Positions 11,218-56,997 of a DNA stretch of 64,000 nucleotides are shown here, one piece after another (position 1 is the stretch's first letter; each line of letters begins with the position of its first letter). Source of the DNA: Dimargaris cristalligena (lineage: Eukaryota; Kickxellomycota; Dimargaritomycetes; Dimargaritales; Dimargaritaceae); assembly GCA_027576995.1 (NCBI GenBank), contig JANBQC010000077.1:1-64000 (forward strand), in the 5' to 3' direction. The translations under genes were made by a program, and so were the position numbers. Below the pieces are notes generated by a model that did no database searches, was not told the DNA's origin, and was given only the letters and a program-made list of their open reading frames with translations.

Positions 11218-11270
11218 AGATAGCTTTTTCATTGCACTTTTTTGGCAGATTTATTAACCACTTGAACATA

Positions 11271-11408
11271 TGGCAGAAATTCATCCAGTCTGTATAACGA
11301 ATAATCCATTTGATGAGATAAATATTACTGGTCAAAAGTTATTCTCCCGCATATTATCCCATACACATATTGGGTAAAATCTTATACAGTTTGGTTGAAG
11401 TTCACCCA
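11271..11408 (-). mobile_element. 138-bp MITE, copy A
   Basis: One of four elements of exactly 138 bp. It starts TGGCAG and ends CACCCA, with terminal inverted repeats related to TGGGTGAAGTTCAACTTGGC. It is flanked by TA on both sides (11269-11270 and 11409-11410). The palindrome even extends outward as GAACATA...TATGTTC. It contains no coding capacity. Confidence 0.8.
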
Positions 11409-11610
11409 TATGTTCAAGAAGTTTTCAATAAACCGCTGAATTATTTAACTTTACAATAAGCTGAAAGTTGATATTTGAAAATAATTGCTCGCCGTATGAT
11501 TCTATTATTAATATTTTTTTGTTATTAAAGTTTATTATGTATTTTTTGGAAGCTTTATAATATTTTTGAATTGTTTTGTATACAATGATTTAAACTAATA
11601 GAGAGACACG

Positions 11611-11661
11611 GATTGACCGCGCGCCACACGCCTTGGAAAAGGGTGTGGCGCGCGATCAAAT
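11611..11661. repeat. GC-rich perfect-stem hairpin between convergent genes
   Basis: Arms TTGACCGCGCGCCACACGCC and GGGTGTGGCGCGCGATCAA are near-perfect reverse complements, with one mismatch and one bulge. The stem is about 21 bp around a loop of about 4 nt. The surroundings are very AT-rich, so the GC-rich stem stands out. It could form in the 3' ends of both convergent transcripts. Confidence 0.75.
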
Positions 11662-11893
11662 GTGTAAAGCATTATAGTAAAAAAAAATATTAGATGCAGT
11701 GAGAATACCACGGATATAATAAACAGAGGCTATGCTATTTAACTATAAGCTAATAGATACGCCTATTTAGATAAGGGTTGTGGCTAGAAGTGTGTGTCCG
11801 CCTCTTAACGAAAAAGAGTAAGAAGAAAAGAACGCTAGTTAATGCCCGAGAGGAGAGAGAGAAATATACTACCGTGTGCTTAGCCAAATTTGA

Positions 11894-12844
11894 TTAGGCG
11901 GCAGCGCAGTAGGCACCAACACCCTCATTAGACTTGCAGACCAAGCCGGCGGGACAGTTGCCAGTGACCTCGCGACCGTTGTCGTTAACGACAATCACGC
12001 CGGACTTGCCTTCGTCCTGGCAGGAGGGGTAGGTGGAGATATCGTCACTGCGGGCCGCGGCCGAGGTTTCAACAGGGGCAGCCGAGTCCGTTGCAGAGGG
12101 AGCAGACTCGTCGACTGATGCGCTGTTGTTATTATCATCGGCAGCAGCACTAGAAGATTCTTCAGTGTTGCTGTTATCGTTGTTGTTGCTGCCGCTAGAA
12201 GTAGTGGAGGCTCCGGAAGCCGAAATGACGATAGTAGGGCGGTTCTTGTAGTAGTCGCTACCGTCGTCGCCACCGTAACCGAACTCGCCGATGGTGGGGC
12301 CATCGCCGTAGTTGGGGTGGAGCATGGGGGGACCACTGATGGAACCGCCGTCCTTACCCTCAATGGCGATGTCCGAGCACGTCATGTAGAATTCGCGGTT
12401 ACCGACAGCGTTCACCCACGACCAGGCGAACACGACCTTATCGCTGGAAGGGGCGTCTTCCGGAATGGGTACGGAGAACGTGAGACCTTCCGTGAAGCAG
12501 GTCTTCAGGATCGTTTGGATGGCCACAAAGGTTTCCCCCCCGTCGTAGGAAAGGGAGAACTCACAGTGACCGCCACCGTGGGTTGCACCACCTTCGGCAA
12601 ATTTCACCGGGATGGACTCGCCGGCCTTGTAGGTGGCTACGGGCGAACTGTACGGGGTGGTGTGGTGACAAAGGGGAGCGTTGGGAACGCCGTCCGTGGA
12701 AATGGGCGACTTGAGCGAATAGTCCTTTTCAGGATAATTGCAGCTCTCCAGGGGTGAGCCACGGGGGCAGGGAGTTTCGGGCATCATATGGGCGCTGACA
12801 CCGAGGGCCAGGGCGCCGAGAATAGCAATAGCGTAGACCTTCAT
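11894..12844 (-). CDS. Secreted AA11-like lytic polysaccharide monooxygenase
   Basis: Predicted copper-dependent oxidative enzyme acting on chitin or related polysaccharides outside the cell. It is a single exon of 316 aa starting at MKVYAIAI. A 18-residue signal peptide ends GVSA and leaves an N-terminal His19 (HMMPETP), as the copper histidine brace requires. The second brace histidine is His89 in ATHGGGHC. The family block FAWSWVNAVGNREFYMTC (about 139-156) matches AA11-type FAWTWFNKVGNREMYMNC and supplies the likely axial Tyr153. A Ser/Asn/Asp/Ala-rich linker of about 60 residues (about 210-270) leads to a small Cys-containing C-terminal module (CPAGLVCK, YC near the end), possibly a CBM19-like carbohydrate binder. 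An in-frame ATG 22 codons upstream would bury the signal peptide, so I chose the start at 12844. The substrate is inferred. Confidence 0.82.
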   Translation of the reverse strand: MKVYAIAILGALALGVSAHMMPETPCPRGSPLESCNYPEKDYSLKSPISTDGVPNAPLCHHTTPYSSPVATYKAGESIPVKFAEGGATHGGGHCEFSLSYDGGETFVAIQTILKTCFTEGLTFSVPIPEDAPSSDKVVFAWSWVNAVGNREFYMTCSDIAIEGKDGGSISGPPMLHPNYGDGPTIGEFGYGGDDGSDYYKNRPTIVISASGASTTSSGSNNNDNSNTEESSSAAADDNNNSASVDESAPSATDSAAPVETSAAARSDDISTYPSCQDEGKSGVIVVNDNGREVTGNCPAGLVCKSNEGVGAYCAAA

Positions 12845-15273
12845 AATGGTAGTTAGATTGTTGAGTGAAGTGTGTGTTTTGAGAGAAAGTATTGATCGAT
12901 TAGAGATCAAAGAAGGGATAGTACAATTAGGAGGAGTGTCGTAATAAAGTATGGTTTACACCAATGTACAGTCAATGTAGATTGGGTAGTGTTAAGAGGT
13001 GTTTGAGAGAGATCTATGAGAATAAACCACAGCCGGGTGAAAAGTAATTATGGCGTATTAATGTGTAATGGTAATACTGAAAAGGAAGTGAACAGGAATG
13101 GCACCTCTATTTATATTTTTTTAAGAACATCCGAAGCATGACGATAGCAGCATCACCTTACCGAATTTCAGGGCGATAGAGGAGGGCGTGACGTGTTTGG
13201 GAACCCAGTTAGAACCATGGGAAACGGGCGCCCTAGGCACACTTCCCAAGGAACTACCAACCACCATGCCTTGACCGATTAGATGCACCAATCCTTTCAG
13301 CAGGAACACATGCTCCCAGGGCGCTCGGCAACGGATGTGACTGCTCAAGCGAATCACCACTATCCGATGGTTCTACTGCGCCTTATCAGTGGTCCTAAAG
13401 GAACTCATTAATATCGCTAGGGGGAGATAAAAAGGGGACGAGTGGGCAAACTTAGGCATGTGAACCAATAGCACGGTCCCCCCACCTTGCGCTCCTCTTT
13501 TCCATTGACGGTGCGCCATCTCACGCTACATCTCCCTAACCCGTCCAATCGGCGACTCGATGCTTCGCCCAAGTAACGCGGTTTTACGCCAAGCGAAGGT
13601 GATAGTAGCTTCGCTTGCCTTACTTCTCGATGGTATTCGCATAACGATAAACCCGACTGGTCGATCCGTGCTTTCGTCACGCGGCGACTTCTCCCTTTGT
13701 TGGATAGTGTTGGTTTATATAATCGTTGGGTATTGTAGTAGGGATAAAGTAAGCGAAAAGCCACACCCGCCTAAAACTACTGCCGAATCATACCGTACTG
13801 TTGACGTAAACGAGACGGTGTTGTCGCCTTTTTCCTCCATTTGGGGTTCTACGTTCTTCTCTAGCCATATTTGGTCGAAGTATATCCAACTAGAATACAG
13901 AGGCATTGCACCTAATCCGAGTCCACTATCCTATTGGTGAATCATGTAGCCAAGGCATATCCTACTATAATCATTCTATAGAAGATGCTGCCTGGCTATA
14001 CCCGATAACCCGGCCACATTGTGTGGCGTAACAAGGACCAATAACGAAATAAGATATGTGCCAGCTCCATATATCTAACGGATAGTGTATACTAGTGCCC
14101 CCTCCCCTCCCACCCATTAGTATGGCTAGATTAGCCACCGGGTTGAGAGTCGAATCAAGCTTGACCACTCTCTCCATTATCAGGCCCGAGGATGATGACA
14201 TAGAGCTTCGGACATCTATTACATTATCATGCTCCAATAAATAGTTCAGCACTTTCACCAGCCTACCAACCTGCCTTAGTTTACAGAGCAACCCTACTTA
14301 TAGCCAATATATAAACGTAAGATTTAATTGGTAGAATGAGTTTATGGAAGTCTCTGGCACGTTCATCTCCTGCTACGCCTTGGCACGCTGAAAGCCGAGC
14401 CAGCAAACATTCAACCCATACACACACACATACGAATGAGGAACACCTAAGGTATTCCACGCTAGAAGTGCATTTCCAGTTAACCAGTAAAAATCTTTTC
14501 AGGAATTCCACGTTTATACTTCTACCGAATTGCGGGCCCGGCTACGATCACCTCACAACACGTGGAATCCACCCTCCCTAATATAATCTATAACATATAT
14601 ATCCGTGTTTTATATTAATAAATCCACAGCATAAGGAAGTCACCTATTGGCCGGCCGTACCTGACTCTCTTTCTATAGTGATTTCTCCTCATTCGTTCGC
14701 CAGGGCTAATCGAATATAAAATGATGTTGGCGTAGCATGTAATACTGCTGATATGGGCGCCTACTATTAACACGAATGGATGAGAGTCCACTGACATCAC
14801 CGGCTTGGGCTTTATCCAAGCCTTTTAATACCTATTACCCCCTAAAAACATATTATATATTTCAATAATACCCGATTGGTGCGCTGTAGTGGACACTTAG
14901 GGAGAGAGGCCTTTTGGGGAAATCAGCCTTCATTAATCAATGCCGCCATCGTCTAAGCCATGGACTATTAACACCTGCGTAACCGCAACATATCTATGTC
15001 TGGCCTTTGAGGGACTGGACTATATTGGTGGCAGTATGCTGCCTGCTAATTTACTACACCCGTTGATCACTCAGGGGGAGAATTCGCGAGAGAGACTTAG
15101 CAAACGGTCTAGGTAGTCCGAAATGGAGGTTGAACGAATAGTATATGCCTGGACTAAATCCATCATTAGCCAATTGGGTTTATATAGGACTAGAAATATA
15201 CATATGGTAAGGGGAGAAATATCCCATAAATAGGGGGCAATAAAAACAGAAGTGATGGGGACCACATACCCCA
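12845..15273. other. Spacer between LPMO and dephospho-CoA kinase genes
   Basis: The left part is the LPMO promoter side. A GC-richer exon-like block at 13162-13359 (minus) is listed separately. A purine-rich patch lies near 15.6-15.8 kb beyond it. Otherwise no gene is supported. Confidence 0.5.
13162..13359 (-). CDS. Orphan exon-like block, function unknown
   Basis: A GC-rich open stretch in AT-rich surroundings. It is bounded on the minus strand by a possible acceptor (GGATAG) and a possible donor (GTAAGG). It would encode a peptide containing HIRCRAPWEHVFLLKGLVHL and later SNWVPKHVTPSSIALKFG. I do not recognise the family and could not find neighbouring exons, so this may be a relic of a gene or a chance open frame. 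Confidence 0.22.
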
Positions 15274-16585
15274 CTAGCTGCTAAACACTCTCCGGAAGAG
15301 CATGGAGAGGAGAAAAATGCCAGCCGTGGCAAGGGACCCGACGGGCCCCACTAGCCATAGTAAGGTTGTTAAGCGACCCGGTCGCAATCTGGTAATCAGG
15401 CGGTGAACCTGCTCTTGGGTGACCTCTCTTTCCCCTGAATTGTCCAAGACGTGATCGGCCAGTTCACATTTGCGGGCCATACTCATTTGGGCACCCATCC
15501 GTTGGCGACAGGCTTCTTCATCTAGGGTATCCCGGGCCATGAGTCGGTGTAGCTGAGTGTCCTCAGGGCTGGGGGTTTAAAGCGAGAATGCGCGATAACA
15601 GGTGGGTGGGGGGAGGGGCCGGATATATCCGGGTTATAGTGTATAGGGATGGGGGTTAGTATACTTGTGGAGTACTTTACTAAATACGCCAAATGCCCGT
15701 GAAATAATGTCAAACGAGTGGGTTGTGGTGCACTAGCAGCTAGGTAGGCTTATTCCTGATTTATGAGAAAAATAAAGTAGGGCCAGTTAGACGGGTGGGG
15801 GGTAAGGATGGTGGTGAATGGTGGTGGATGGTGAGATTAGCAGGGGCACTTCTTCCATCCCCTGGGGGCTATATACTCCAGTCCGAATCATATTTTGGCA
15901 TATCCAGGCCCGTCTCCATGCGACTTCTTCAGCCCGTTTTGACTTACCAATATACCACAACCGTGTCAGACACAAAGCGATCCAGGCGACTTTCGAAAAG
16001 CAGGGGGATATCCAGGACCACCAAAGGTTCGCCTCTAAGGTAGTGGCCCAGCGTTTCCCAGGCTATTTGGCGTCGAATCGCCGGGTGGGTGATGGCGTTT
16101 AACCGGCGGCGGAGCTGCTCGTCGGCGAATACGATTTGCCCCAATCGAGGCCGGTTCAGAGTACCATCGGGATGTAGAATGGCCTCGCCGAACGTACGGA
16201 CTAGGGCACGGTAGGCCGGCTGGCCGGGCTCCACGACCTGCCGGGCAATACGGTCGGCATCGACAATGGGAATGCGTTCATGCCGGAAGACTTGGGACAC
16301 GGTACTTTTGCCTAGTGTAAGAAAGTGGGTAAAAAACAGGGGGGCCACCATCGTAGTAATCGATATACGGTTCGTTGGGCGAATGGGGACGGAGGTTGCT
16401 GCTGGGGTTAAAGAAGGCGGCAGTTACTCTTGGACAGACAGGAAACCAGAGGCCTGAGGAGGGACATATGGGACGGCTTAGTAAAAGTAGAAAGTTCCTG
16501 AGAAGAGTGGGTACAAGTATCTCCTAGGACTCTGGGTGCGCAACCTACCTGTGGCAATGCCACCAGTTAACCCGAGGATTTTCAT
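15274..16585 (-). CDS. CAB5: Dephospho-CoA kinase, C-terminally anchored
   Basis: Catalyses the last step of coenzyme A synthesis, ATP-dependent 3'-phosphorylation of dephospho-CoA. Three exons: 16585-16549, 16311-15948 and 15568-15274. The donors are GTAGGT and GTAAGT, and the phases close to 231 aa. The P-loop GLTGGIATGKST is split across the first intron (residues 5-16). Further CoaE signatures are IVDADRIARQVVEPGQPAY, LNRPRLGQIVF, ITHPAIRRQI, VVLDIPLLFES, and then in exon 3 the QLHRLMARD, EEACRQRMGAQM, KCELADHVLDNSG block. The final 30 residues (TLLWLVGPVGSLATAGIFLL and following, ending RRVFSS) form one hydrophobic helix, as in animal DCAKD of the same length. This suggests tail attachment to an organelle membrane, mitochondrial or ER. 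Paralogue confusion is unlikely. Confidence 0.93.
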
Positions 16586-17367
16586 GGCGGATTAGTTACG
16601 ACTAAACGCTTCGCTGACCGGTAGAAAGGGGAATCAAAAACACAATGGGGAAGTTGGATGGGAATGGAAATAGCAAGACTATACAAACTGGAGGGCTTTT
16701 GGTTTCTGCGACCCACCGCCACACCATCAGCAGCCCAAGGCCCCCTCTCTCCCAGTCTCCACTGGGGGAGATTGGGAGGGGAATTGCAAACTGTAAATAG
16801 GGGTATTATTTTTAAACTAGTGGTGCCAGCAATTTGGTATAGCTGTGCCGAATTTCGCCCATATAGTCACACCCAACAGATATTTTTGCAGTACGAGACG
16901 ACTGACCTCATATGTTGAAAGGCAAAGAAGGGACTGTAGCCCTCGGGTAATTTACCATAAACACTGTAAGCTGGTGGTATGCCCAACTAACTAACTAACT
17001 ACACTACTTATCGCTCCTGCTCCTGGTTGGTATATATGGCCATTAGCTCCAAGAGTCTACAAAGTTGGATATTGGTGATGACGGATAACTAGGCCAGCCA
17101 TAACAACTAGATCCAGTTGAGGAAACTGGGCCCAAGCTAGGCTTATTTCCCTCCCACGTAAACCCCCCACAGTCACACGAATTGGAAAACGGTCCCGCAG
17201 GTGTGGAGAGTGACTCACTTTCAGGTTTGGCCAGAACCAACAAATGGTCCTCCTATTACATAGGGGAAAGGAGGGGGAAGTGGGGTGTTTGCCCCTCGTT
17301 CTACTTGCTCTTGACTGGAATTACCTCGACCTATAAACCTATAGAGATCCCTTCCTCCAGGGTAGCC
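16586..17367. other. Spacer between dephospho-CoA kinase and Rid genes
   Basis: A divergent promoter region: the kinase reads left and the Rid gene reads right. It contains a degraded relic of the 138-bp element near 16801-16867. No other gene is seen. Confidence 0.5.
16801..16867. mobile_element. Degraded relic of the 138-bp MITE
   Basis: The end TATAGCTGTGCCGAATTTCG followed by CCCATATAG closely matches the termini of copies B and C (TAGCTGGGCCGAATTTCACC). The inner part TTTTTAAACTAGTGGTGCC resembles the element's centre. The middle appears deleted and the other terminus was not found. Confidence 0.45.
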
Positions 17368-20820: not shown

Positions 20821-20942
20821 ATGGATCTCAGTGAGACCACAACCCCCGGCCCACTTTAATGTATTTGGAATGTCACCCCATCCACCATATTAGCATCTCT
20901 CCCCATACCCGCCTCTCCTATGCGCCCCGCCCCCTTTCTAGC

Positions 20943-28228: not shown

Positions 28229-31200
28229 CGCTACCGAATGTAAATTTTAAAAAAGCGAGGAAAAGAACAGAAGAAAATTAGATATCGATGGAGTATATCA
28301 GAACTATTGGAGCGATGGCTGTGGAATAAATAGCGAATATTAGGTGAAGCCAAACGAGCACTAGTGAGAGAGTGCATCAAGTGGAATGCAGGTAGCGGAT
28401 AATTAATGTCAGGAGAAAGAAACGAAATGATATATATATATATATAAGAATGTATAGTGGAGCAGAGATGGGGGGGTGACAAAACAAGTTGAAAGGGGGA
28501 GTGGCAATACAGTGGAATCTTATGCGCCCGTTTAGGTATGCATTTGAGAAATAATAAAGAAGGGTCAAGGGCAAAAAAGAGCGCACTATTGAATTAGCAC
28601 TGAATAATTACTATTACGTAGACGATAATACTATAGATAAAAAAATAGGGAGGACAGGGTCAATATATAGATAGATATTTATCTATACTAGTAGGGCGAA
28701 ATAGAATATCCCAGTAAGAGACGGTTCAAGGAACACTTAGAGCCGCTTCGGAACAAGAAGGATATTTGGTAGCGGACGCTGCGGGAAATCGACGGAGAGC
28801 AAGCGTCGAGCGACACGCCCAGACGGCGGTGGTTGACGTAGGAAACCCCGGTCGACACCAGTAGTTCGGGGAGTCGACGGGAGAAGGGGGGTGGTGAGGT
28901 AAGGGGTGAGAAAAGGGATTGTCGTTGAGGGGTATGGGGGATTAGGGGTTGAGTGGGTAGTAGCCATCCATAAACCTCACAGCGGGGAGAGTTCGTTTCG
29001 GGGGGGGGGGAATAATTAAAATACTCTAGCAGAACACGACAGTACAGGTGCTAAAAAAGGGGGGAAGGTGTCACAAGGCTGAGTAGTTAGTAACCGGATA
29101 GGTTCAAAGAAATACCAGGTAAGAGTGAAGAGTATTTTATAAACGATGGGGAGCACGAAGGGAGGGGTGACTGAAGAAACAGGTGTAGGCCAAGTGATAC
29201 GAGACTAGAGAGAGTTGGTATTGAGAACGGCACGAAATAAAGAGAGTAGAGTTGGTCAAAGGATGGGCTACGGGATGGGAACGATGAACCTGGAGGAATC
29301 CGCCAGTGGGTGAGAACTGATAAAGAGGTTAAGTGACAAACGATCCCTGGAGCAGGGAAGCAGTAAAAAGAGAGAAAAAAGTGGGGTATTTAAAATAGCC
29401 GCGCGTGAAGAAAAGGGTAGGGAAATAGTTCAGCGACCCAACCAGGCTACTAGGAAGTCAGGAAGGGTGACAACTAGTGTACGATGGACCAAGCAAGATA
29501 TGTGAAGGGTACGTGGACAAAGAGGACGTTAATAGAGATACTATAGGATGGAAACAAGAAGGGAGTAAAATAGCTGTGAGAAGGAGGCAGCTCTATCGGG
29601 GCTTCGATATGGAAAAGATGGGTTGATGCAAGTGAGTGACTGGAGAGAGGAAGCCAATAAGGGAAGAGACAAGCAGGATAGGCCCAAAGAACCAGTTAAA
29701 TCAAGGAATCGGAAAGGGGAAGAATAACAGTGAGGAAGGGGAGTTGGATGATTTTGAATAACAGCAAAAGAAGCAGTAGTAGGGAAATAGAAGACGCACA
29801 GTATTCATTGCCCAGACCGAAGGGGGAAAGAAACGGGATCCGGGGAGAAGCAGGCCACGTCCTTATATATATAAGAACAGGTCGAGGATGAGCAAGGCCT
29901 AGAAGAGACTATATGCGGGTGAGGGAATAATAATATATCAGTGAGTAGCGACCTCCCACAGTGGGCGACGGGAAGGAACGACAGGGAAGAGTGAGAATAT
30001 AACGAAAAGCGAGGCGAGAATCCGTTAAAGTACTGAGGGGCAAAATAGTAGTGGGAGGAGGGATTGGCCACCCCCCTCCTCCATAGTCCACAAAAAAGAG
30101 AACAGGTGAACGACGCCGCTCTCTGCAGCAGGAGCATCAAGCAAAGACCAGCAGTTGGATCAGCCATTTGGTGAGGCCAGCCAGGTACGGGAAAATTGAG
30201 TCTAGAGAGCCCACCGAGTGTATGCGCATATAGCATAGATGGAGTAGCCACTCAACAAACAAGCTGTCCCCACCTACTTACTTACCTACTACCCTACAAA
30301 GCATACAGGGGAACCACCGCATTTAAGGACTCATCCGAAGCCGGCTGCGAGACGCCTCCGCTAGATCGCCTCTATGCGCATACAGTCTCCCCTTTAGCCT
30401 ACTCTACCGTGAACTGAATCAAATAAACCGGTCCGTATCCAGCTGGTATAAAAATACCTTTCCTATATCCACCCACCTTGCATTCCATTGTATTGTATTG
30501 TATTCACCAACTCATCTCGGTAGCTTATACTTCCTCCCTCCCTATCGAATCTACCGCCACTCCGATTTGAGCAGCCCCTCTCTCTCTCTTCCTCTCGGCC
30601 ACTTTTCCTCGCCAGCCCCCAGGATTCTACAGCCGCAATCACGCTCGCTGGGTGGGATGGCTGACGTTTCGCCACCAAATTGACAAACAAGGGCGAGGCT
30701 GAGAGACCAGAAGGGTAAGGATTGTCCGTCAATTATATCCCAAATGGGTTGGGATAGTCCCATTTAGGGCTGTAGAGCCCATTCAAACACTTCTAAACCG
30801 AATTCACTCCCTGTCTTGGAATATTGGTTTATTGTCCCACCTTTTAATTCGACCTTTTTCCGTTGACTTATTCCGCCTACTGAAAGAGGAGAGGGACAAT
30901 GAGAGGGGGTGGTAAACAGCAGAGGCAGGAGATCCGGGGGGAGGCTGGCCTTCTGGGTCTAAAGAAGGGGAGGGGGTCTAGGCATTGGGTTAAATTGCAT
31001 GACGTTATTATTATACCCGGTGACCGCTCTTTACTTGACTCGGGTGCCCCAGTTGATTTACCTCTCTCTCTCTCTCTCTCTCCCGGCATAACCCCGGACA
31101 AAGGAAATGAAAGAGCACTGTTGACTCCCCATTCTTAAGCGACCGCGCGAGGCACTGACGGATAGAAACCCCGAAAGGTTATACGCCTAGTGGAAAAACC

Positions 31201-35582: not shown

Positions 35583-38133
35583 TTACGACCAAACCACCAT
35601 ACGGCCACTGGCGTTAGCCGACACCACGACGGGCAAGTGGGCGTGGAATACATTCACTGCCGGTACGGCCGTGATCCGGTCGGGGTCATAAAGCTGGGTG
35701 ACCAGCTCACCCGTCGAGCCACAGAAAATGTCGACGTATCGCTTCATATTGCCCACAACGAAACACGGGGGCATGGTTGGGTCGGGGTGCCACTGGGCCC
35801 GGAACATGGTAAGCCATCTAAATAAACAGGTATATAGTTGCGGTTGTTGGTAATATGTATAGGTATCGGTATAAGTATCACAGGGGGGTGGTTAGAAGGC
35901 GGTGTATAAAACTCTACATAGGGGGATGGATTGACTATAGATAGGCCCTAGTTTAAAATGCGATCATCCGGCATTGCTACCCCCGGTACTCGAAAGGTGA
36001 GCCCTGGCTCCTTCTTTATACATGGGGGGAATCCTTCATTATGGTCACCCGACCATCATTTGAATGTATGACAAGATTGGCTTTTAAACAGGAGGTTGGC
36101 CCCAGTCGTTCGTGACTGTTTACAACTGCACAAGTCATTGAATACCACTATTACCCCTCCCCCACACACCCTGGTCTAGGAGCCGGGTCTAGCCAAGGGG
36201 ACGGCACGCTCAACAGTTTTTCAGAAACTACAAAATCATAACCATACTCCAATACATTGGCATCAACTTACCTTCCCGTTTGGTTATTATGCCGAATTAC
36301 GAACCGCTCCCGTAAATTAGGGGACCCACCCTTGGCATTGCTGTCACCGGTCGCTGTTAAAGACGACGACGAATCTGGTGCCGAGGACCAGTCCATAGTA
36401 CTCAAACGAATTGTATCGTCAAAATTAGTGTTTACAATGTGATTGCCCGTAGGATCCCAGTAGGCCGCGGTCACTGACTTGGGATAGTCAAACGTCGACA
36501 CCTCGACCGGATCGTCCGTACCCGGGGACAGTTGCACTACTGTGTCAGTGAACCCCGCACCTTGTTTCGAGCGGGCGCCACCCATCCACCGCAGGTCCCA
36601 TACCCGCATCGTTCGGTCCAGCGAGGCCGTGACCAAGTACTGGGGTTCGACCGGGTTCAAATGCATACCCCCGATTTTACGTTCCTGCAATTGCCACGCC
36701 GTAATATCGGTTGCGGGGGTTCGGAGGTCGTGAAAACCAAGTGTGCCGTCACTCGTCGTATAGTAGAGAAGCTGGCCCGTTCCGGGATCGTTATCGAAGC
36801 CCGTGATAAACCGGTCCCCCGTCTCCGTGACGCAGGCTTCGGTAAAGGTCTGGTGAATCAAATCGAGACAGCGGATCGAGCCGTCGTAGGAACTGGTGTA
36901 CAGTTTAGTGGCGTCCCGTTTGTTATAGAGAAGCTGGGTGAGGGTGGCCGTATGCGGGCGGAAACTAAAGACGTCGGCGGTGGTCATATCCGCCATTGAA
37001 ACCGACTGGCGAATGGATTTTAGTGGACTCTGATTGGTAGCCAAATTCCCGGGAGCATCGGTGGTCAAGTCCGCCTCCTCCTCCTCCTCCATCTTCACCT
37101 TCACCGCTTCGTCGGGAGTCTTTTGGGAAGCGGAGGTAAATTGATCGGTGGAACCGATATTCCAAAAACCCAGCACCCCTGACTTATCCCCCGCGGCGAC
37201 CAAGAACTGCCGCGGGTCGGGATGTAGAGCCACGGTATAGATGCGTTCGGGGGTGACTTTGCAGGTGGGCTCCCAGGATGAAGCCGCCGGTGGGCCGGAT
37301 GTGCTATCGTCGCCTCCGTTTCCGTCTTCGTTGGTGGCCATGCGGGGATGCGTGATTCGCAGGTTTTGGAACCGACTCGCTAATTGCCGGTAGTTGGCCT
37401 GGGCCGTCTGACTGTCCTCCGCAGTCGACGGGTACGTCTCCGGACCTTCTGTTTCCCCTTTCCCGTCCGTGGTCAACGCGGTGGTTGGGTCAGAGGTGTC
37501 TGATTTACGGTGTGGAGCCGCCAGCGACTGACAGATACTCACGAAGGTTTGGATAAGCGAGGGTGGGGTAGCCGCCACTGATGCCGATGACTCACCGTCC
37601 TCGGTTTTAATACTACCCTGCGCCTCCTTTTCGGTTTGTAACCGCCCCGGTTTGGCGACAAGCAGCATCGTGTCTGCCAGGGACAGCTCACCACTGTAGC
37701 GTCTTTTCCGCGCCGGTTCCAACACGGGAAATGACGGGCTTGGCGCTCCACCGTCGCCCCCCGCGGCCTTGGCCACCATCAAGTTCGTCAATAACCGCGC
37801 CGCAGGGTCTTCCGGATCGTCCCGTAAAGCCACGTCCGGTTCCTGGTTTTGCAAGCGCCGGGACACCCGCCGGGTAGTGGCGCTCATCGGCGAGTCCGTT
37901 GCTGGGGAGGCCATACTATCCTCTAGCCGCGACGTGGCCCGCCGTTTCTGACCTTTGGGGGTCGTGGGGATGGCGGCCCGACCCAAAGCCGTGCCGGAAG
38001 TTTTCGCGGAACGACTCGCTGTTGGGGACGAGAAACCAGAGGGCCCGCCGAGATTGAGTTCCTTGAGGATAGCCGCGTTACGCTGGATATTTTCCAGGCG
38101 TTTCTTTTCGTACTCACTCTGGTCGACGGTCAT
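35583..38133 (-). CDS. CMR1: CMR1/WDR76-type WD40 protein
   Basis: Nuclear WD40 protein that in yeast binds DNA and chromatin, is involved in DNA-damage responses and gathers at intranuclear quality-control sites. Two exons: 38133-36272 (donor GTAAGT) and 35817-35583, phase 2, 698 aa. The N-terminus has the family start SEYEKKRLENIQRNAAILKE (residues 6-25). A long low-complexity Ser/Thr/Pro-rich region follows to about 290. WD repeats then include VTPERIYTVALHPD, AAGDKSGVLGFWNIG, the SFRPHTATLTQLLYN block, LYTSSYDGSIRCLDL, YYTTSDGTLGFHDLR, LVTASLDRTMRVWDLR and the C-terminal FRAQWHPD, FVVGNMKRYVDIF, ITAVPAVNVFH, SANASGRMVVWS. The junction restores NNQTGRWLT. It is longer than the usual 500-620 aa because of the extended N-terminal half. 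Confidence 0.92.
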
Positions 38134-44000: not shown

Positions 44001-46825
44001 CCATGCCACGTCGTGGTCAATGTGAAGGGAAGAATACGCGGACTTTCTAATGAGGCGTAGATAGTATCACAGTCCTTCGAAATGCAAATCAAATCGTTAG
44101 GCCGGACAAAAATTCACGGAATCTTAGAGTAAATGTCACTTTTGATTCAGGGCACGGCGCCATTGACCATCCCTAATGCATAAGAAAGAACGACTGCTAC
44201 CTTGATGAGCGATATGATATGATCACTTTAAAGTGGGCTAGTAGTGTGGATTGAAGTTTAGCTCCATAAAAGCCCGTTTTGATTCATTAGCTTAGTGTTT
44301 TTTGTTGTTTTTTCCTTATCTATTGGTTTTCGTCCGTGTGGGCGGGTCTAGAAGAAAATATAGCAGCGCGCAGTCTATACCGCGGCTGGATTAAGGTACA
44401 GCAAAAGACGCCATTTCTACCATTTGGCCTCTTCGGTGATCTTCCTATAGAACATCTTAAACGAATAGCAGTATCATGAGGTACGGGCAACCCTTCCAAT
44501 CCCAGTAAAGAGGTGCTGGGCAGTTTGAATGGGAATCGTCGGTTACCCTTAAAGAGGTAGAGCCACCACCGAAAAAGTCGAGATCGATCCAGCCTAGTAC
44601 ATTGCACATGGGTGAACTGGACTGGCCTGGATCAGTTGATTTGGGTGATCATAGAGCAGTTAGTCGCTTTAGTCTCACCCACCACTAGCCTCAATGGGTG
44701 GGAGGGGGGGATAAGCAAGGGTACCGGTAATAGGGGTGACCTGCGCACGGGTCAACTGTATACTATATTTGGTCGAACAATGGTGAGTGGTATAGTAGAA
44801 GAATAGAATCCCTGGAGAAACCCACATTTACCACCTCTTTTCATCACCATCCACCGCCCTTGGCCCTGTTGGAAACGGGTAGAAGTGATCAGTAGTATCG
44901 CGCACGTGCAATTATGCCAGGGAAGGGAGATGGGGAGGGGGGGTTCAACGCTTTTTAGTTCAGGGATACCAATGTAGTGAGAAGGACGTGTGTGAAAATG
45001 AGCAGTCAGTCAAACGAGGGCGGGATTGCGTGTGTATATGGGTATGGAGTACAGGGTGCTAAACAGTGTGGTATAGTAGTAGGCCCAGTAATTGAAGCAC
45101 GCGTGTTTGTGAAGGGATAATATTACCCGTGACACAGCACAGCACAGGGCAAGTCTTAACTGATCCTGGTAATATATATAGAATCCGTAGGCTCCGGGAT
45201 GATGATGAGAACGGGAAAGGGGGTGCCCACCATTTCATACTGACCAGGGGCAGGCAGACTAGGTGATTGGACCTCTCGTTGCCCGGCACGTCCTTGGGGA
45301 TTGGGTGAAGGGGATTCGGGACTAAACTCGCCATCGATTGGTAGGAACGGTTTTGGCTCGACTCGATTGACCACCTCCTTCCCCTAGGAACCAATAGGCA
45401 ATCCACTATAGTAAGGAATCCTTGACTCGCCGATAGTCTAAGGCTCCGTATAATTCAATCAAAACATCCATTTAGTCTCATAGAATCCCCCTTTCACCTC
45501 TCTCTCTTTCTCTCGCACCGGGTGTAAATATATCAGTTGAATTGAAAATGGGAGGCTGTAAAAAAGGTGTCATTAACCTATATTTGGGATGTGGGAATCC
45601 GATCAATTGAACCCAGATGATGTAGCATCCATGTAGGTAGGTAGGTATAGAGTGACAATAAGGAAAAGGGGGGGTGGTGCTAGGAGGCCGAAAAAAGAAA
45701 ATCCGGAAAGAAAGCAAGAGAACCTGGTGGTGAACCATGTCTATCAATGGTGGGGGGGATAATATCAGATTTGGTGAGCTCCAAAGAAGTGAGGAGGAGA
45801 GAAAGAGGCCTGTGCTAAAAAAACAACCGATTACCCAATACTATCCAACCACACGGTTTATCAAGGCGCGCGTTGTTATAGAGTGGCCATGGTAGATTAC
45901 TTATTGTACGTTCCCACTGCTAAGAAATAATAGGGCGCTTTTTAACTGGCGAGCGACGGCAACTACTCGGCGACCTACTCCAATCATATTACAAGGGGTG
46001 TACAATCCCGAAACCATCAGTTCATTAGGCATGGTATTCTATTATACGAATATATGGGTGAAATTCGGTCTAGCTGTATAGGGTTTTGACTGATATGTGT
46101 ACGCGGAGATGGGTGGGATATTCATATTTAACCAGTAGTATTCGCCTCATCCAGTGGATTTTTCGTTATACAGCTTGGTTGAACCTCCCCCATATATATA
46201 TATATGTTCTAGTTTTACTTAGTTTCCCGGCAGGTTTATTGGAATGTCCACGCCAAAGACCCAAAAAGAGTAGGGTGTGGGGGGGGGATCCATTAAATGC
46301 CAAGGCAAATTAACAAGTAATAGGTCAAAAGTTGCAAATGTTTTCGGGACTCTCCTGTGAAGCAAGCCTATAAAATCACATTGGCGACACGGATTTCTGC
46401 CCAATGAACCAACCACGCAACCCGTGCAGTTGCTACAGTATAAACTGGCTTTTATAAGTCGTCTTCAAATGGGACGTTTATTAATTATACGGGCCGAATC
46501 CGGCTTGCAAAAGAGCTATCAAGACGCTTTAACCAATGCTCCCAATGACACGCCAAAGCAAGTGATTGCTATACATGGGAACCGGAATGGAAACATCCCT
46601 CTCCTCCAGCAAGGGAGGGGGGTGGTGTACTAGCCCTAAAATATTGTATTGAACCAACCAAAGTATACCGCACTAGACTGCCCACTTCCCCATATATGTC
46701 CCCCCATCGGGCTACACTTTGACGTATTAAATTAGTTTGGAAACCCACACAAAACAATGGAGGCCGTTCAATGTGATTCATTGGCGAAAATGGGTGGTGT
46801 CAAACCCCCCCCCCCCTTCCGAACT
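41026..46825. other. 5.8-kb spacer upstream of HAP2
   Basis: The first kilobase is the probable HAP2 leader/promoter. The rest has short open frames without family signatures, for example 45156-45374 (minus) and 46424-46633 (plus). (ACC)n patches lie near 43020-43052. A 138-bp element sits at 46055-46192. Confidence 0.5.
46055..46192 (+). mobile_element. 138-bp MITE, copy B
   Basis: Starts TGGGTGAAATTCGGTCTAGC and ends GGTTGAACCTCCCCCA, exactly 138 bp. It is flanked by TA at 46053-46054 and 46193-46194. Internal blocks GACTGATATGTGTA, CCAGTAGTATTCGCCTCATC and TTTTTCGTTATACAGC are shared with copy D in the same orientation. Confidence 0.85.
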
Positions 46826-49075: not shown

Positions 49076-51021
49076 ATGGCTGACCAGGGGCTGACCCAGG
49101 ACGATTTCCGAAAATTTCTTGCTACGCCACGACCAGGGGCATCCGCCGCGTCCAACGACGGGACTGCTCGACTTAAGCGGTCCTTTTTGCCTCCTAAATC
49201 AGGGTAGGTGAATCTTTCCCATTCCGGTCTATTTACCATGCCCCATCGTGGGCCTTCCGTCCCGCCATAGTTTGTCGTAGGACCGCTTTCAAGCTATCCT
49301 ATCTGCACAATATTAACGTTACTCACTAATGTTTATATCGGTATATATGGTTTTTGATTTTGATCCTTAATTACAATGGTATCCCTCATTAGACGAACGG
49401 GCCCGGGTCCCACAGACGAGGTAGCACCCGAAAATAAGAAACCCAAAAGGTTAGTAGTTCCCCCCTTATATCCAATAACCCGGATGAATCATCATCCAAC
49501 GATACCATATCATTTGTAATATATAGGACTGTTCTCCCTAAACTGTATATAAAGTGTCAGGTTAGAGTTGGGCTGGCCTTGAAATCAGGAGTCCCTATTT
49601 AGTAATCCAAACTTGAGTAAATTAGCTAACCTGAAATATATATACCCCAATTCTGCGATACCCTTGCACGCCACAGTAATCAGCACTGGAAAAAACCGGG
49701 GAATGAACAAGACGATGCACCCAAGTATCGTGATCGAGCGGCCGAACGACGTCAGCGGGAAAAAGCGGAGCGCCAGTACGAAATCGACCGATTCGACGAA
49801 GATCCCGCCGACCTAGGCGGTGGTGGGGGTCCCTCGGCCGCTACGACGAGCGGACCCTTTGCGTTTAACCAAACCCCCGATGAACGGGAAATTACCTACG
49901 AACAATCCAAGTTTCTCGGGGGTGATGTCGAACACACCCATTTGGTGAAAGGGTTGGATTTCCTGTTACTCGAAAAAGAAAAACGGCGGCTCCAACTGGC
50001 GCGGGGCAACGGCGACGCTGGGGAAACGGATACCGCCGCCACTCTTATGGATGCAGACGCGGCTCTAGAATCACTCCTCCAACACCCCGCCCGGCCCGAC
50101 TCGGAGGCCAATACTGCTACTACTACTACCTCCACTGGATCGGTAGGTAAGGCCAAACTCACGCCAGCTGCTCTGCAAGAAGCGGCCCGTTTACGGCGCC
50201 GCCAACTCGTCGAACAATTAAATATACCCCGACTCTGTCAGGATCCCCGGGCCCAGACCATTTATCAGGCGGCCGTGGTCGAACCCTTGACCTATCCCGA
50301 CCGGGAACTGCCCCGTCGAAACCCCCATTTCCAACCCGGGCGGATGCTCTTCGCTTTCGAATTGGCGGATGCGAACGGTCGGTATGCCGATCCCTTCGCC
50401 ATTCCGCCCACCGTGATGCGGAGCAAAGCCGAATTGGCCCGGTTGGTGGGCACTGGCACTGGCCCAGGGACGGGGACAGGGACAGGGGCCAGCACGAGTA
50501 CAGGTGCGGGAATGGATATGGGAGGCGGTGATTCCACGGAACCGGGGCAGAACGATGATGATTCCCATACGCGGTTACTTATGGGTAAGATCATCGATAT
50601 TTTAGCGCAGAGGCGTCGGGAAGAGGAACAGCAGCAGGGGCAGGGGCGGAGTCTAACATCCCGGTCGAACCAACCTCAACAACCGCATCATCATTCGGGG
50701 AAACGGGTCGGTAAAATAGTTAGGTTCGCGGATGACTCGCCTCCACCAAGTGAAACGACCCTTCCCCTCCAACAGGACGCCGGCGGATCGCTCCCACCAC
50801 CACCATCATCATCATCATCATCATCGTCATCGTCACTATCGCCCATTAACGGGGGCGGTCATGCTGCCGCCGTTTCTTCGAGCCCAACTGGCTCCAGCCT
50901 TACCACTAAGGCCGAAGACCCTAAACCAGTAGTTACCCCGGCCGCTGGAGATGGTGAGGACGATGATGACGATGATTTCGACATATTTGCCGGAGTTGGT
51001 CATGATTACCAAGTTGGATGA
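49076..51021 (+). CDS. RED/IK-type spliceosomal B-complex protein
   Basis: Homologue of RED (IK), the SMU1 partner that joins the spliceosome as a B-complex protein before activation. Three exons: 49076-49203 (donor GTAGGT), 49393-49449 (donor GTTAGT) and 49677-51021, phases 2/2, giving 509 aa. Signatures are LTQDDFRKFLATPR near the start, KYRDRAAERRQREKAERQYE, then ITYEQSKFLGGDVEHTHLVK followed by GLDFLLLEKEK, matching RED's SKFLGGDMEHTHLVKGLDFALL. Later come FQPGRMLFAFEL, IPPTVMRSKAELARL and a C-terminal acidic run before DIFAGVGHDYQV (RED: NIFEDIGDYVP). The middle contains Gly-Thr, Gln and Ser-rich low-complexity tracts. The third exon's 5' end was chosen by phase; an extra tiny exon between 49450 and 49676 cannot be excluded. 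Absent from budding yeast. Confidence 0.9.
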
Positions 51022-51628
51022 TAGAAGGCCTTTTATAAAATCGTATGGCCCACACCAAAAGACAGGAGGGGGAGGAGACTATAGATGGATACTTGTATAT
51101 TTCTTTTTAAACGGCCATTTAGTAATAGAGCATCGATGTGAGTTTTTTTTATTGCCAATCGCTTGTGTTAAGAGAATACTATGATTTATCAAATGTGTTA
51201 TTTGCGATGTAAAGATGGAATACATAAAAGGTAATTTAGAAAGATAAAAAAACAAGAATACAAAATTGACCTTGGTTGAAGTAGAATATAAGCGGAAATC
51301 GCTAATAGCAGTCATAAAAATAAAACAAAACATGATAATATTAATCGCAAACAAAAATATATATATGCAAGGACAAGGGCAAGGGCAAAAAAAATCTATA
51401 TACTAGCGTTAGGATTATTAGGCAATATTTACGGGTATAGAAATATAGTATAAATGTGCTCAACACGGGAAGGTTAATGATTCCGCTGATATGTGTTGTG
51501 CGTCCTCCAACGAAATAGAGTGGAGGTTGGCGAATCACATTCGGTTTTTCCTCGCCTTCACCAACTCTTCTGTCCTTCTCTTTATAAGACCCGACAACCT
51601 GGGGAAACAACGGCACTTTGGCGCCCAC
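51022..51628. other. Convergent 3' spacer between RED and TGL1
   Basis: AT-rich, with AATAAA-like runs on both strands. No gene is seen. The two flanking stop codons are about 600 bases apart. Confidence 0.55.
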
Positions 51629-53957
51629 TCAGTTGGTGGAATAGGTGCCGTTCATTTCGGCGTACGACGTGGCCACCGCAGCGTGGTTGTTGCCGGCTTT
51701 GCCGGCTGTGGTGTCATCGTCAAGACTGATGCGACGGGAAGAACCAGTACCCTCGCTTTCCCCAGATAGGGTGATTTCCGAGTCAGACAGCGACATGGCC
51801 ACGGTATCATCGGCGGGTTGGGGGAAATTAGGGTCGTTGGAGCGGAGAACAGCAATCAAGTCGTCCAATACTTCCCGGCGTAGATCATCGGCCCATAGAA
51901 AATCTATGTAATGGGAATAGTAAGCGACATCAATAACATTGAAGAGGGGGGAATGTAATAATAATTCACAAGAATAATAAAAATACTTAAGTGGTTAGAG
52001 ATATGATTGGTCAATGGATAGCGATCATTACACATGGGAGAAGTTCAGCCAAGCTGTATAACGAAAAATCCATTAAATTCGGCCAATATTACTAGTTAAA
52101 AATACATTCCCCATGTATTTTCCCATCCACGTATAATGCAAACCCTTATATAGCTGGGCCGAATTTCACCCACATGGATTTTCAGAGCAGATAGTCTCCT
52201 CTATTCTAATCTTTTGAAACGAAGTAGGGTAAAATGGCACAGACATGTTTCCATCAATGCAATCGAAAAATATATATGAGGAGGGGGGGGCGCAAAACTC
52301 AATAAAAAAAAGCGGCAAATAAATGATCAATCAACTTACCAAGATGTTCGTAATGGGGGACCTCCTTAACATAGACCGGTTTCCGCAGCTCTTTGGTAAT
52401 CAGCTGCTCGGCACTCGACAAACTATCCCGACCACCGTGGAACAGCGCAATGGGGATCCGAATCTGACGGGTTAAGTAGCGGTGACAAAAGTGGCCCGAC
52501 CGGAACACGGGGTTAGGGGTCACGGGAATTTCATCGTAGTATTGGAGGCGACCGGTGCGGATAATCTGCATCCAATGCACGATACTTTTGACGCTCGAAA
52601 ACGAGTACAGGTGGTGGTAACACACGGCTTTCGTGGTGGGACTCATATTCAGCGTTTTCCAGCCGAACAAGAAATCCAGGCACACGTCGAGGACGGAAAC
52701 AAACAGGTCCGTGGGGAGCAGCTCCTGCCACGTCAGGGCAATGGACAGGGCTTCCCGGCGGCCCAAAAGTAGGTAGAGGACCTGCGGGGACGTTTTGATC
52801 ATCGCATTGACCACGTCGCTATCAAAACCCCGCGGGGTGGTGGCGGGCGCTAAGGCTACGAAAAGGGATACCTTGTCGTTCAGTTCGGCGTTGGAGGACA
52901 GGGCGCAGAACATTTGGGCGGTGCCCTGGGAGAACCCAATGTAAGCCAGCTTGGATACGCCGGTGGTGGCTAGGATATAGTCGATCGTGTTGGGGACATC
53001 GAACATGGCCAAATCATCAATAGCAAAGTCCCAGAACTCGGTCTGCCAGGTCCGTTTGGTTAGATGGCGGTAGGAATACTTGTTACCACGGGAATTGCCT
53101 AGCCATACATCATAGCTATAGTTATAGGAGGAGACAGTATCAGAAGGGATATATAGTCAAAACACACATCAGTAATCGCGTAATGGGATTTTAGACAATC
53201 GATTTCGGGGTCCGGATTCGGATTCAGTAGAAGTCATGTAATTAAACTACAGTACGAGATGGATCCGTTTGTAACAAATAGGATGCGCTTGAATACTTAC
53301 CCAGCGTCGACTAGCATAAGGGCCATGACGTTCTCCTTTTCGGGGATACTGACGAACACCTCGGATGACATCATGAAGCCATGCCAGAGTAGAACCACGG
53401 GGCGGGGAGGTCGTTGGCCATCCTTACCGTTGCCGTAACCATCCGACTCCGATTCAACCGGCGATCGGCTAAGTAAACGGTGGATACCTAATACATAACC
53501 GTCCCGGGTCACCACGGTGTGTTCCTCCATCGGGTAGCCCCAGTACTCCATAAGGTCACAGAAACTGTCCTTGTTGTGGATCGAGTTTTTCGGGCATTTG
53601 ATTTGGGGGCTATACGTGAAGTCGCGTGCATGTGTGTGTGTGTGTGTGTACAAAGTGAAATGGTAAGTAAAGCGAAGATATAGAGAGAGAATGGGTTTTA
53701 GTTGATCGGTCTTGGCCATACTACTGTTGGCTTATTATACCGGCCAGTCAGGATCAGATCAGTGGGGCATAATGATATTAACATATCGGGTGGACTTACC
53801 TATTGGTTAGCTTGGCTAACGTACGGGTAATGAGTTTGACGGGGATAAAGAACAGAAACAGACGCAGGATTCGCTCGATAAAGAAGAAAATGGCAGCGAA
53901 AACAAGCGACTGGTACTCCATAAAGGAGAGCCGGCCGAGAATGGGAATGCGGAACAT
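51629..53957 (-). CDS. TGL1: TGL1/YEH-type steryl ester hydrolase (lipase)
   Basis: Acid-lipase-type alpha/beta hydrolase that mobilises steryl esters (and possibly triacylglycerol) from lipid droplets or membranes. Four exons: 53957-53800, 53609-53301, 53115-52340 and 51903-51629, all with GTAAGT donors, closing to 505 aa (yeast Tgl1: 548). An N-terminal hydrophobic anchor at about residues 16-45 begins MFRIPILGRLSFMEYQ. Lipase signatures are EEHTVVTRDGYVLGIHR, VVLLWHGFMMSSEVF, DVWLGNSRGNKYS, FWDFAIDDLAMFDVPNTI, and the nucleophile elbow GFSQG with Ser at about 218. Then APATTPRGF, SVKSIVHWMQIIRTG, the Asp in GGRDSL (about 386) and the catalytic His in YEHLDFLW (about 413), which is split by the last intron. 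The tail is acidic/Ser-rich. The last intron (51904-52339) contains a 138-bp MITE. Confidence 0.94.
52035..52172 (-). mobile_element. 138-bp MITE, copy C, inside a TGL1 intron
   Basis: Starts TGGGAGAAGTTCAGCCAAGC and ends GGGCCGAATTTCACCCA, exactly 138 bp. It is flanked by CA on both sides (52033-52034 and 52173-52174) rather than TA. Internal TGTATAACGAAAAATCC and ACCCTTATATAGC match the other copies. It lies within the last TGL1 intron, in the same orientation as copy A. Confidence 0.85.
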
Positions 53958-55468
53958 GTTGACCGCTGGTTGGGTATGAGAGAGGTGTGCACTAATTCAG
54001 AATAACTAATTGGGAATGGCAGAGAGAGATAGAGAGCCAACCAGGCGGTAGTCGTATGATCTATTTAATAGTAGGTATGTAATAATCAAACTATATAAGT
54101 AATAGCTTTCTGTATAATGAATGGGCAACCCGTAATTAGAGTCTATGAATCCGAACGGCTAGGACTAGAGATAGTAGGCAAGAGATGATATATATATGGG
54201 TGTGTATAAATAATATATAAAATTACATATTCAAATGATGATGATTAGTAGTTGGTCCAGACCAATGGGCAACATTTCCAACAGTCTCGCGCATGCGGGT
54301 TCAGCCGCGTTTCATTTGGCGTGGAGAATATCCCTTCCCCATCCACTCAACCTCTGTATTATCAATCTAACGAGGGGCAACGAATAGGGAACGGGTCCGG
54401 GAATTGGCGGGGAGCCCTTGCCTATGATGAACAGCATTACATTAAAGGGGGGGAATAGGCGCCATTAGGCAGGTAGGTTGTACATGTGTGTATAAAAGGG
54501 GGGTTTGTGTACCCCTCTGTTCATCCACCAATGGTACATCGTCTAGCGCTCATACGACTTGGGCGGGCTGGGTCCACTTGACCACTTATATGGCCGGGAG
54601 AGAGAAAGTGGGGAAACCTTCTCTCTTCCATTCTCTCCAGCCTTGTTACAAAAAGCGGCGATCAGCACCGCGTCTTGTCAGCAGAATAATAGGAGCCGTT
54701 AAGAGAGAGTAGTCAGTCATGCGAGAAAAATGGGCCTGCTCCATATTAGCTTTTACACCCTCTAACCCAGTCAGTGGTGTAACTCCAAACCCCGCCCCTT
54801 CTCCGTAACTTGTCGAAATAAACGACCGGCCGAACATTGGCAGGTGATAAAGACTAGGGTAGAGGGGGGGACTGAATGGGTGAGAAGGTATTTGTGTAAA
54901 TTGCCTACCTATACACCACGCCATAATGATTTCTCTGTCCATGGGGGCACTACTACGCCAAATACGAAGTAAACCATTGCCCTTTCAAGACTGAGGGAAT
55001 AACGGGACGCGGACATTGGCGTTCGAACATTCCGTCTCTCTCTCACTCCTCCCCCACTCTATATTGTAAGTAGTACAGGCTAAAACCGAAGCTTAGAAAA
55101 TAAACCTACCTGACGAAACGAAGCCTCCGGAAAATAGCGCAGGTCGGTGTTGGGAATGAGTGCACAGTACGATGGACTCGCTAAGTATAAACCACGATGG
55201 GCGGAATGCACAGCAAGCGCGGGTATGATGAAGGTGTCGAAAAGGGGTGCACAAGTTGTCCCAGATAGCGGCTGGAGTACAATATAAGTAGTAGTCTTTC
55301 GAGAGAATTAGACGAGACTTGGAGCAACAAACCAAATTAACTTAGAAACGAGGGGGTTAGTTGGGAGGGGGTGAGGAGGAGGGATAACACTATAGGCGCA
55401 TACTGAAAGTGGCTGGAGAAAGGCTGAACAGCACGAGTGGATGGGGTGGTTTTGGTATGTATATTCTA

Positions 55469-55470
<2 letters not shown>

Positions 55471-55500
<30 letters not shown>
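55471..55500 (+). repeat. (CT)n microsatellite
   Basis: About 15 uninterrupted CT units in non-coding sequence. Confidence 0.9.
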
Positions 55501-55509
<9 letters not shown>

Positions 55510-56329
55510 TTGGGCCTATTAGCTCTCCCTAGAACTGGAGGGGGTTTGGCTGGCTCTATTATATTAAATATCACCACTGTATACTACATTAACATTAATA
55601 TCATTATCCCCCTTTCTACTCGACCAAAGGCCTGACAGCCTAGATAGTGATTGGCCAGCTCTCGCATCGAGCAGAGAGGATCTCAGGGTCTCTGGCCCAT
55701 AGAATGCCTGTTGCCACGTGAAAGTCCAATTAAGATCCTTCTAATTAATGAAATGGTGATGATTTCAAGACAGTTAAACCGAAACGACCCAGGCATCTAC
55801 GACCGAGATATAGTCCCAACTTGCGGACTTTCCCACATACTTATATCCTGGCCCCTCTCTCCAAGCATGAAAATACTGCCCTACTGTATCACCGACGACG
55901 ACCTGGTGGGATCAAGTACTCTGACCCGCCGCTCTACAGAGAACTGAATCCATAGATGCAGAGTACCCCCAACATTAAAACCGGCCCACTCTGCACTTTC
56001 CCGCCTTGTTGGACTCTATTCAAAAGAGCATTCGAGCCAAGGCGGGTAGAATAACTATTATTTACCACTTCTGCTTGGACTTACATTATATATGTGTCCC
56101 ATGATCAGTGGACTCTAACCCTGGACTGGACATAGTCAGATATGCAACTAGCATGTGGTCAAGGCCAACCACATTGGGCGCTTAGACCAGGTGTCCTGAA
56201 GGACATTTAATAGCGGTTTTCTTAGGATTTCACCTCGTGTTGTGCGAAATACATCAGGCAGCATGTCCTCTACCCATGAATATAAACCGATACGAATAAC
56301 CCCCCCCCCTCCTGCCCCAACTCCTCCAT

Positions 56330-56355
56330 TTATATATATATATATATATATATAT
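56330..56355 (+). repeat. (TA)n microsatellite
   Basis: About 13 TA units following a C+T-rich stretch. Similar tracts occur in the Rid intron, the RED promoter and a PPG1 intron. Confidence 0.9.
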
Positions 56356-56859
56356 TTGGTATTTATCCACGCTGCCCTCCCTTTCATAAAACACTGGTTG
56401 TAAACTACAAAACCGCAGTGGTAAATTATTACAGCCTAGCCTTCCAATGACAAGCGAGGCCCCATTAATCGACTAGGTTCTAGCTAGCGGCCCCCATTAA
56501 TAATTAGATCATTAAGCTATTATCGAAGAACGGTTGCTCACAAGGTCTATAGTATTCCAGTGGGTTGTAAGGTCGCGGAGGCACCACCATTCTGGATAAT
56601 TCTAAAATACGTAATGTAGTAGATCTACCAAATCTAATAAGCCCACCTCTACATTCGGGTGTGCAAACTAGGCAATCCGACCGACTGAACGGTAACCATG
56701 ACGTAGTGGGTGAACTACCACCATGCGTTGTATCCTATAGCCTACCTTCCGATGTTGTTTGCGAACCTCTGGTATTTAATTCGCATTGCAGGGCTGAGGA
56801 TAACGACATTATGGTGGGTGTCCAAAAGTAAAGGACTAGTCAGCAGTTCATGTTTAATA

Positions 56860-56997
56860 TGGGTGAAGTTCAACTTGGCTGTATAAGGGTTTAACTGATA
56901 TGTGTATGGGAAAATCCGCGGGATGTTTATTTTCAACCAGTAGTATTTGCCTCATCAAATGAATTTTTCGTTATACAGCCTTGTTGAACTACTCCCA
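56860..56997 (+). mobile_element. 138-bp MITE, copy D
   Basis: Starts TGGGTGAAGTTCAACTTGGC and ends GTTGAACTACTCCCA, exactly 138 bp. It is flanked by TA (56858-56859 and 56998-56999). The two termini match at about 23 of 27 positions when inverted, making this the clearest copy. Confidence 0.88.

Follow-up and report, generated by a model that had tools for sequence, protein, structure and literature searches.

A probable family of 138-bp miniature transposable elements inserted at A-NN-T sites in Dimargaris cristalligena

Four repeats and the family they belong to

The first 64,000 nucleotides of contig JANBQC010000077.1 (assembly GCA_027576995.1) of the fungus Dimargaris cristalligena (Kickxellomycotina), referred to here as the window, contain four dispersed 138-bp repeats with inverted ends, which raises the question of whether they are copies of one transposable unit and, if so, what kind of enzyme moved them and into which sites. 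An earlier note, made from the letters of the window alone, had taken them for a probably undescribed miniature inverted-repeat transposable element (MITE) of the Tc1/mariner type. The analysis presented here indicates that the four repeats very probably belong to one MITE family in D. cristalligena, presumably mobilised at A-NN-T sites by a DDE enzyme supplied from elsewhere. The copies and the dinucleotides duplicated beside them are as follows.

11271..11408, minus strand: element copy 1, 138 bp, subfamily '5', 94.2% to the subfamily consensus
11269..11270 (low side) and 11409..11410 (high side): TA duplication of copy 1
46055..46192, plus strand: element copy 2, 138 bp, divergent, at best 80.4% to the subfamily '10' consensus
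46053..46054 (low side) and 46193..46194 (high side): TA duplication of copy 2
52035..52172, minus strand: element copy 3, 138 bp, subfamily '3', 95.7% to the consensus
52033..52034 (low side) and 52173..52174 (high side): CA duplication of copy 3 (TG on the strand of the element)
56860..56997, plus strand: element copy 4, 138 bp, subfamily '10', 95.7% to the consensus
56858..56859 (low side) and 56998..56999 (high side): TA duplication of copy 4

The positions, the 138-bp length and the two copies in each orientation given in the earlier note were confirmed for all four repeats, as were its flanks (TA at 11271, 46055 and 56860, CA at 52035, the same on both sides) and its imperfect terminal inverted repeats (TIRs) of about 27 bp, in which 19-23 of 27 positions agree. 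Ungapped pairwise identity among the four copies was 71-79%, compared with 42-43% for the best window placement of three shuffled versions of one copy. A profile search recovered exactly these four full copies from the window, a result that is partly circular because the profile was seeded with the family consensuses and the copy at 46055. No coding capacity was seen in the element, and no transposase was found among 10 open reading frames (ORFs) scanned with Pfam out of the 51 of at least 100 aa present in the window, to which extent the note's statement on this point also stands. The unit is 138 bp long, or 136 bp should its first base T and last base A be assigned to the target, and its imperfect inverted ends are of the type TGGG-GAA-TTC...CTGTATAA.

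The family was then followed through the draft assembly of D. cristalligena, which is broken (27,093,018 bases in 779 contigs). The right-end motif, with up to two mismatches, occurred at 477 + 457 = 934 places, against 1 + 2 = 3 for the reversed motif, a count that underestimates diverged copies. A single DNA query gave at least 42 matches, 41 of them covering positions 1-138, with 40 of 754 first-look candidates scored. The genome holds at least several hundred copies. Profile searching of 137 fetched loci and the window returned 173 distinct hits, 141 of which were complete with flanks; the 32 partial hits (contig ends, nested halves, diverged copies) were left out before counting, and loci L138-L164, fetched later, lie outside the 141-copy set. 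Genome-wide the ends proved to be fixed, as the earlier note had expected of a transposable unit: 118 of the 141 complete copies are exactly 138 bp, the remainder, among them four copies of 126 bp and three of 128 bp, range from 125 to 143 bp, and the flanks differ between copies.

Clustering of 96 copies of 138 bp produced five groups of at least four members (32, 26, 16, 8 and 4) together with smaller groups, and subfamily consensuses were built from 138-bp copies only. Mean divergence was 4.5% in the 124 copies close to a consensus, the other 17 of the 141 being further from every consensus. These groups look like separate bursts, which are undated. None of 74 copies, taken from 53 loci measuring at least about 3 kb (the window among them), overlapped an open frame of at least 150 codons by more than 20 bp, whereas 25.5% of placements drawn at random within these loci did so; the frames were taken from stop to stop without gene annotation, and introns or short exons may still contain copies.

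Two further observations concern the copies and the assembly that holds them. CpG positions, of which each consensus has just 1-4, hold 131 of the 764 substitutions in the 124 copies, and 114 of 516 transitions fall at CpG, a pattern that resembles the decay of methylated CpG. A number of contigs (L024, L043, L047 and L123 among them) terminate within a MITE copy or beside one, suggesting that the family may break the assembly.

Insertion sites and the A-NN-T rule

Precise insertion with duplication was shown directly by five copies nested inside other copies (L015, L057, L094, L109 and L112), which provide the filled and empty sites that had been set beforehand as a check. When the inner copy and one dinucleotide were removed, the outer copy aligned without a gap at the junction to a subfamily consensus in all five cases. 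Its restored length was 138 bp for L015, L109 and L112, 137 bp for the diverged L057 and 139 bp for L094, and in both L057 and L094 the indels lie away from the junction. The duplicated dinucleotide was TC in L015, TA in L057, L109 and L112, and AA in L094. Irregular overlaps in L012 and L102 were not counted among these insertions. Across the larger sample, 131 of the 141 complete copies have identical dinucleotides on both sides, namely TA in 117, AA in six, TG in three, CA in two, and TT, TC and GA in one each.

The bases around these dinucleotides follow a rule of their own. Among 108 complete copies, A occupies position -3 in 106 and T occupies position +3 in 105, compared with a background of about 29% for each, and an A or T is found at -6 in 102 copies and at +6 likewise in 102. 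The core itself reads T in 100 and A in 99 copies on the left, and T in 96 and A in 102 on the right. All 14 of the coherent non-TA duplications retain the A before and the T after. Since TA accounts for only 12% of 707 ANNT sites in nearby flanks, TA is preferred within ANNT, although it is not required. The outer A and T are conserved no less strictly than the central TA.

A wider palindromic target was considered and rejected. The site of copy 1, after removal of the element and one TA, reads as a perfect 18-bp palindrome, which is taken as a coincidence because pairing beyond the fixed A and T was close to chance over the 141 copies. Symmetry of the target is not unusual in itself, since palindromic motifs extending past the duplication are reported as a rule in Drosophila (PMC3276498). 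The A-NN-T rule is atypical, though not unprecedented.

The mechanism that best accommodates these results would begin with a DDE transposase made elsewhere that binds both ends of the element, excises it and integrates it at a symmetric A-NN-T site. Each insertion would rebuild A-NN-T at both junctions, and the rebuilt sites could be used again, giving chains of the form element-TA-element. At least five subfamilies would have multiplied in this way, and the transposase may since have been lost, may be missing from the broken assembly or may reside in an element with unrecognised ends. Weighing against this reading are the 10 of 141 copies without matching dinucleotides, which we read as later mutation or misplaced ends; the non-random sample of copies, picked by end motifs, junction patterns and contig order; and the result that no partner transposase with matching ends was identified in the draft assembly with PF13358, PF03184, PF13359, PF13843 or TIR patterns.

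Transposase candidates and the length of the duplication

Four matches to DDE_3 (PF13358), three of them above the cut-off, were found in the assembly (L039, L040, L041 and L042). The element in L041 (570-2508, about 1.9 kb) has 30-bp inverted ends (93%) containing CAGTCATGGCCA, a transposase spread over several frames and a MITE copy adjoining it; from its translation and known motifs we take it to be Tc1-like. That in L042 (1236-2544, about 1.3 kb) has 43-bp inverted ends (81%) containing GTCTGACC and many stops in the transposase region, and is, on the same grounds, presumably mariner-like. The ends of both differ from those of the MITE. The frames of L039 and L040 are short or interrupted by stops, and neither locus showed recognisable ends; a 26-bp match in L039 to the left end of the MITE was rejected as the transposon's own end, as the alignment with its relative L040 diverges there, and is read as a MITE remnant. 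Searches of the assembly gave no match to DDE_1 (PF03184) or piggyBac (PF13843), for each of which the control was silent too, and none to DDE_Tnp_4 (PF13359), for which the control was positive in one of 14 genomes.

The ends were also used as bait. TIRs enclosing a non-MITE interior had no exact match in the assembly; with one mismatch there were 52, and the ten most foreign-looking were fetched. All ten match the MITE profile end to end over about 131-152 bp (L152, L154 and L155 weakly) and were rejected as longer elements, the remaining 42 being judged by their matched letters alone. C741 (L164) likewise proved to be an ordinary short copy, its first 57 bp common with a half-copy in L012. 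Half-copies running into unrelated sequence are present in L012 (718-771), L043, L109 (1840-1895), L126 and L144. The interiors of those in L043, L109, L126 and L144 had no match in the other fetched loci and their other ends were not found; these four look truncated, and a rare longer element may yet exist. A longer element with the same ends and a DDE transposase, which the earlier note had proposed looking for, was therefore not confirmed in the draft assembly.

The superfamily may be Tc1/mariner, a PHIS-type (ISL2EU-like) system or another. Stowaway-like and fungal Tc1/mariner MITEs are short, gene-less elements with inverted ends, mostly duplicated TA and many copies, and the present family resembles them in each of these features; it differs in that TA is not obligatory, the outer A and T are at least as strict, the ends start with TGGG (or GGG) and no Tc1 partner with these ends was identified. 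Of the two parts of the earlier classification, MITE was upheld by the fixed ends, differing flanks and filled and empty sites, whereas Tc1/mariner was not established, given the 14 of 131 non-TA duplications, the strict A and T, a possible 4-bp duplication and the failure to identify a transposase with these ends in the draft assembly. A Tc1-like transposase with a 2-bp TA duplication, a very strong preference for ATAT and non-TA sites as rare errors nevertheless falls only a little short of an even chance. It agrees with the TA majority among the coherent duplications, with the broken Tc1-like and mariner-like elements in the genome (labels that come from our reading of the translations) and with L162, in which TG is duplicated beside an outer base C, as fits 2 bp; it is at odds with the ends of L041 and L042, which do not match the MITE, with those of L039 and L040, which were not recognised, and with outer bases at least as strict as TA. 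Sleeping Beauty offers a parallel in that a TA-preferring element sometimes enters other dinucleotides, as two reports describe (PMC5801840, PMC7987939). Its non-TA events are, however, described as asymmetric and mainly aberrant, with TA still on one side (PMC7987939), whereas the non-TA duplications here are equal on both sides and keep the symmetric A and T.

A duplication of all four bases of ANNT, leaving a 136-bp element that starts with GGG and ends with CCC, whose mover would be either a PHIS-type (ISL2EU-like or Pangu-like, IS5-related) DDE transposase or an undescribed one, is a tentative alternative, to be taken seriously though it has clearly less than an even chance. With T...A as the terminal bases of the element, the flanks read ANNT/GGG...CCC/ANNT, and at an ANNT target the filled and empty sites look the same whether 2 bp or 4 bp are duplicated. 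In its favour, a single rule would cover both the strict flanking A and T and the nearly invariant terminal T and A of the element, and exact right ends genome-wide deviate from T at +3 in four cases and from A at the element's own last base in 10. Nine last-base deviants had a readable left flank (eight of the 10, plus L048). Excluded from this test were L122, which aligns poorly, L141, whose left end lies beyond its contig, and C717, which is truncated by the end of the contig. Three of the nine share the unusual base at -3 (L059 and L138, both GTAT, and L139, CAAT), and six disagree with it, namely L018, where a base seems to have been inserted, L029, L048, L140, L142 and L143. At a base rate of 2/141 unusual bases at -3, with the poorly aligned L044 excluded, at least three agreements would arise by chance with p ~0.0003, a post hoc value, the test having been picked after L059, itself within the base rate, had been seen.

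The T side offers no coherent deviants. The first base is not T in eight copies, and of the six with both ends none agrees; among the four right ends lacking T at +3, L014, L163 and the strongly diverged L154 disagree, and L162 does not duplicate its outer C, which favours 2 bp. The duplication may thus be 2 bp or 4 bp, 4 bp being possible, with three copies favouring four and one favouring two. The family was also compared with the ISL2EU group of the PHIS superfamily, as described in one report (PMC4482050). If the flanking ATAT is target, the ends here start with GG, as those of ISL2EU usually do, and a two-base core lies between conserved A and T, as in its A/AT/T target; the ambiguous length of the target-site duplication also resembles that of NuwaII (PMC4482050). 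The core here is mostly TA rather than AT, however, the assembly has no match to the PHIS transposase domain PF13359, and the group is reported there only from animals (PMC4482050).

Chains, constant length and novelty

Neighbouring copies form chains. The junction pattern occurred at 77 places in the assembly against 22 for the control, and in 16 distinct pairs from the fetched loci the two elements are separated by exactly 2 bp; L109 has a run of three elements, one of which contains a nested fourth. Thirteen of the 16 pairs have the same orientation (head-to-tail), three have their left ends facing and none its right ends facing (one-sided p = 0.011 for at least 13 of 16), figures to be read with the reservation that many chain loci were fetched by the junction pattern, whose sensitivity is slightly lower for right-right junctions of subfamily 10. 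A preferred chain orientation is suggestive only. Reuse of junctions is expected, since each insertion rebuilds A-NN-T at both of them. Bacterial IS30 has a 2-bp duplication, a symmetric target and dimers with 2 bp between the copies. The chains here look alike, although no more than a likeness is claimed.

The family could belong to an undescribed DDE lineage for which the palindrome A-NN-T is the target, duplicated as four bases, and whose enzyme prefers its own rebuilt junctions in one orientation, lining up unrelated copies head-to-tail with one shared ATAT; we consider this unlikely. Less likely still is an origin of the chains in tandem duplication by recombination rather than in fresh insertions beside old ones. 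Such duplication would give the head-to-tail arrangement seen in 13 of the 16 pairs, but the other three are in opposite orientation, and in L009, L020 and L025, the loci to which the subfamily comparison was limited, each of the two neighbours has a different query copy as its best match.

Nothing special need be invoked to account for the constant length. The five subfamily consensuses differ from one another at 19-34 of 138 positions and have the same length, and preservation of that length by selection was considered and rejected because indels are rare across the family as a whole, with 16 indel events against 764 substitutions in 124 copies. On the shortest tree of the five consensuses, 90 substitutions predict 1.9 indels, and zero indels would be seen with p = 0.15. 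A conserved host element (a regulatory site, origin or structural RNA) held at 138 bp by selection would match the equal length of these divergent consensuses, themselves built from 138-bp copies only, but is highly improbable given that copies jump into one another at exact sites, that indels are rare anyway and that the window has no Rfam match at gathering scores.

The literature searches, whose scope lay outside RepBase and Dfam, returned no description of the element, and passages of one report dealing with Dimargaris and transposable elements do not describe it (PMC6784888). The earlier suggestion that the family is probably undescribed therefore holds as far as that literature goes, RepBase and Dfam not being covered; the family is new as far as searched and, being a MITE, of an ordinary type. 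With it, a high-copy miniature transposon is recorded for Dimargaritales, a fungal order that has received little study. A clear target rule (A-NN-T, not TA alone) emerges from the natural insertions, and many of the copies are self-insertions; both are of use in establishing which part of the site, the central dinucleotide or the bases flanking it, is recognised by a transposase. The family could also serve to tell strains apart.

The longest ORF of the window (36268-38133, minus strand) shares 100% identity over its length with a D. cristalligena protein. Elsewhere in the window, two tandem genes of the major facilitator superfamily (MFS) of transporters occupy 5845-7308 (split over two open frames) and 9574-11214. 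Identity between them is 94.5% along a stretch of 476 bp and drops to 73% over the 587 aligned positions that follow, as though the pair had undergone partial homogenisation. These paralogues were considered as a source of an empty site for copy 1 and proved uninformative, as their similarity stops at about 11221, before the element. The window also contains many short CT and TA microsatellites, at 31047-31095, 55471-55511, 59010-59078 and other positions.

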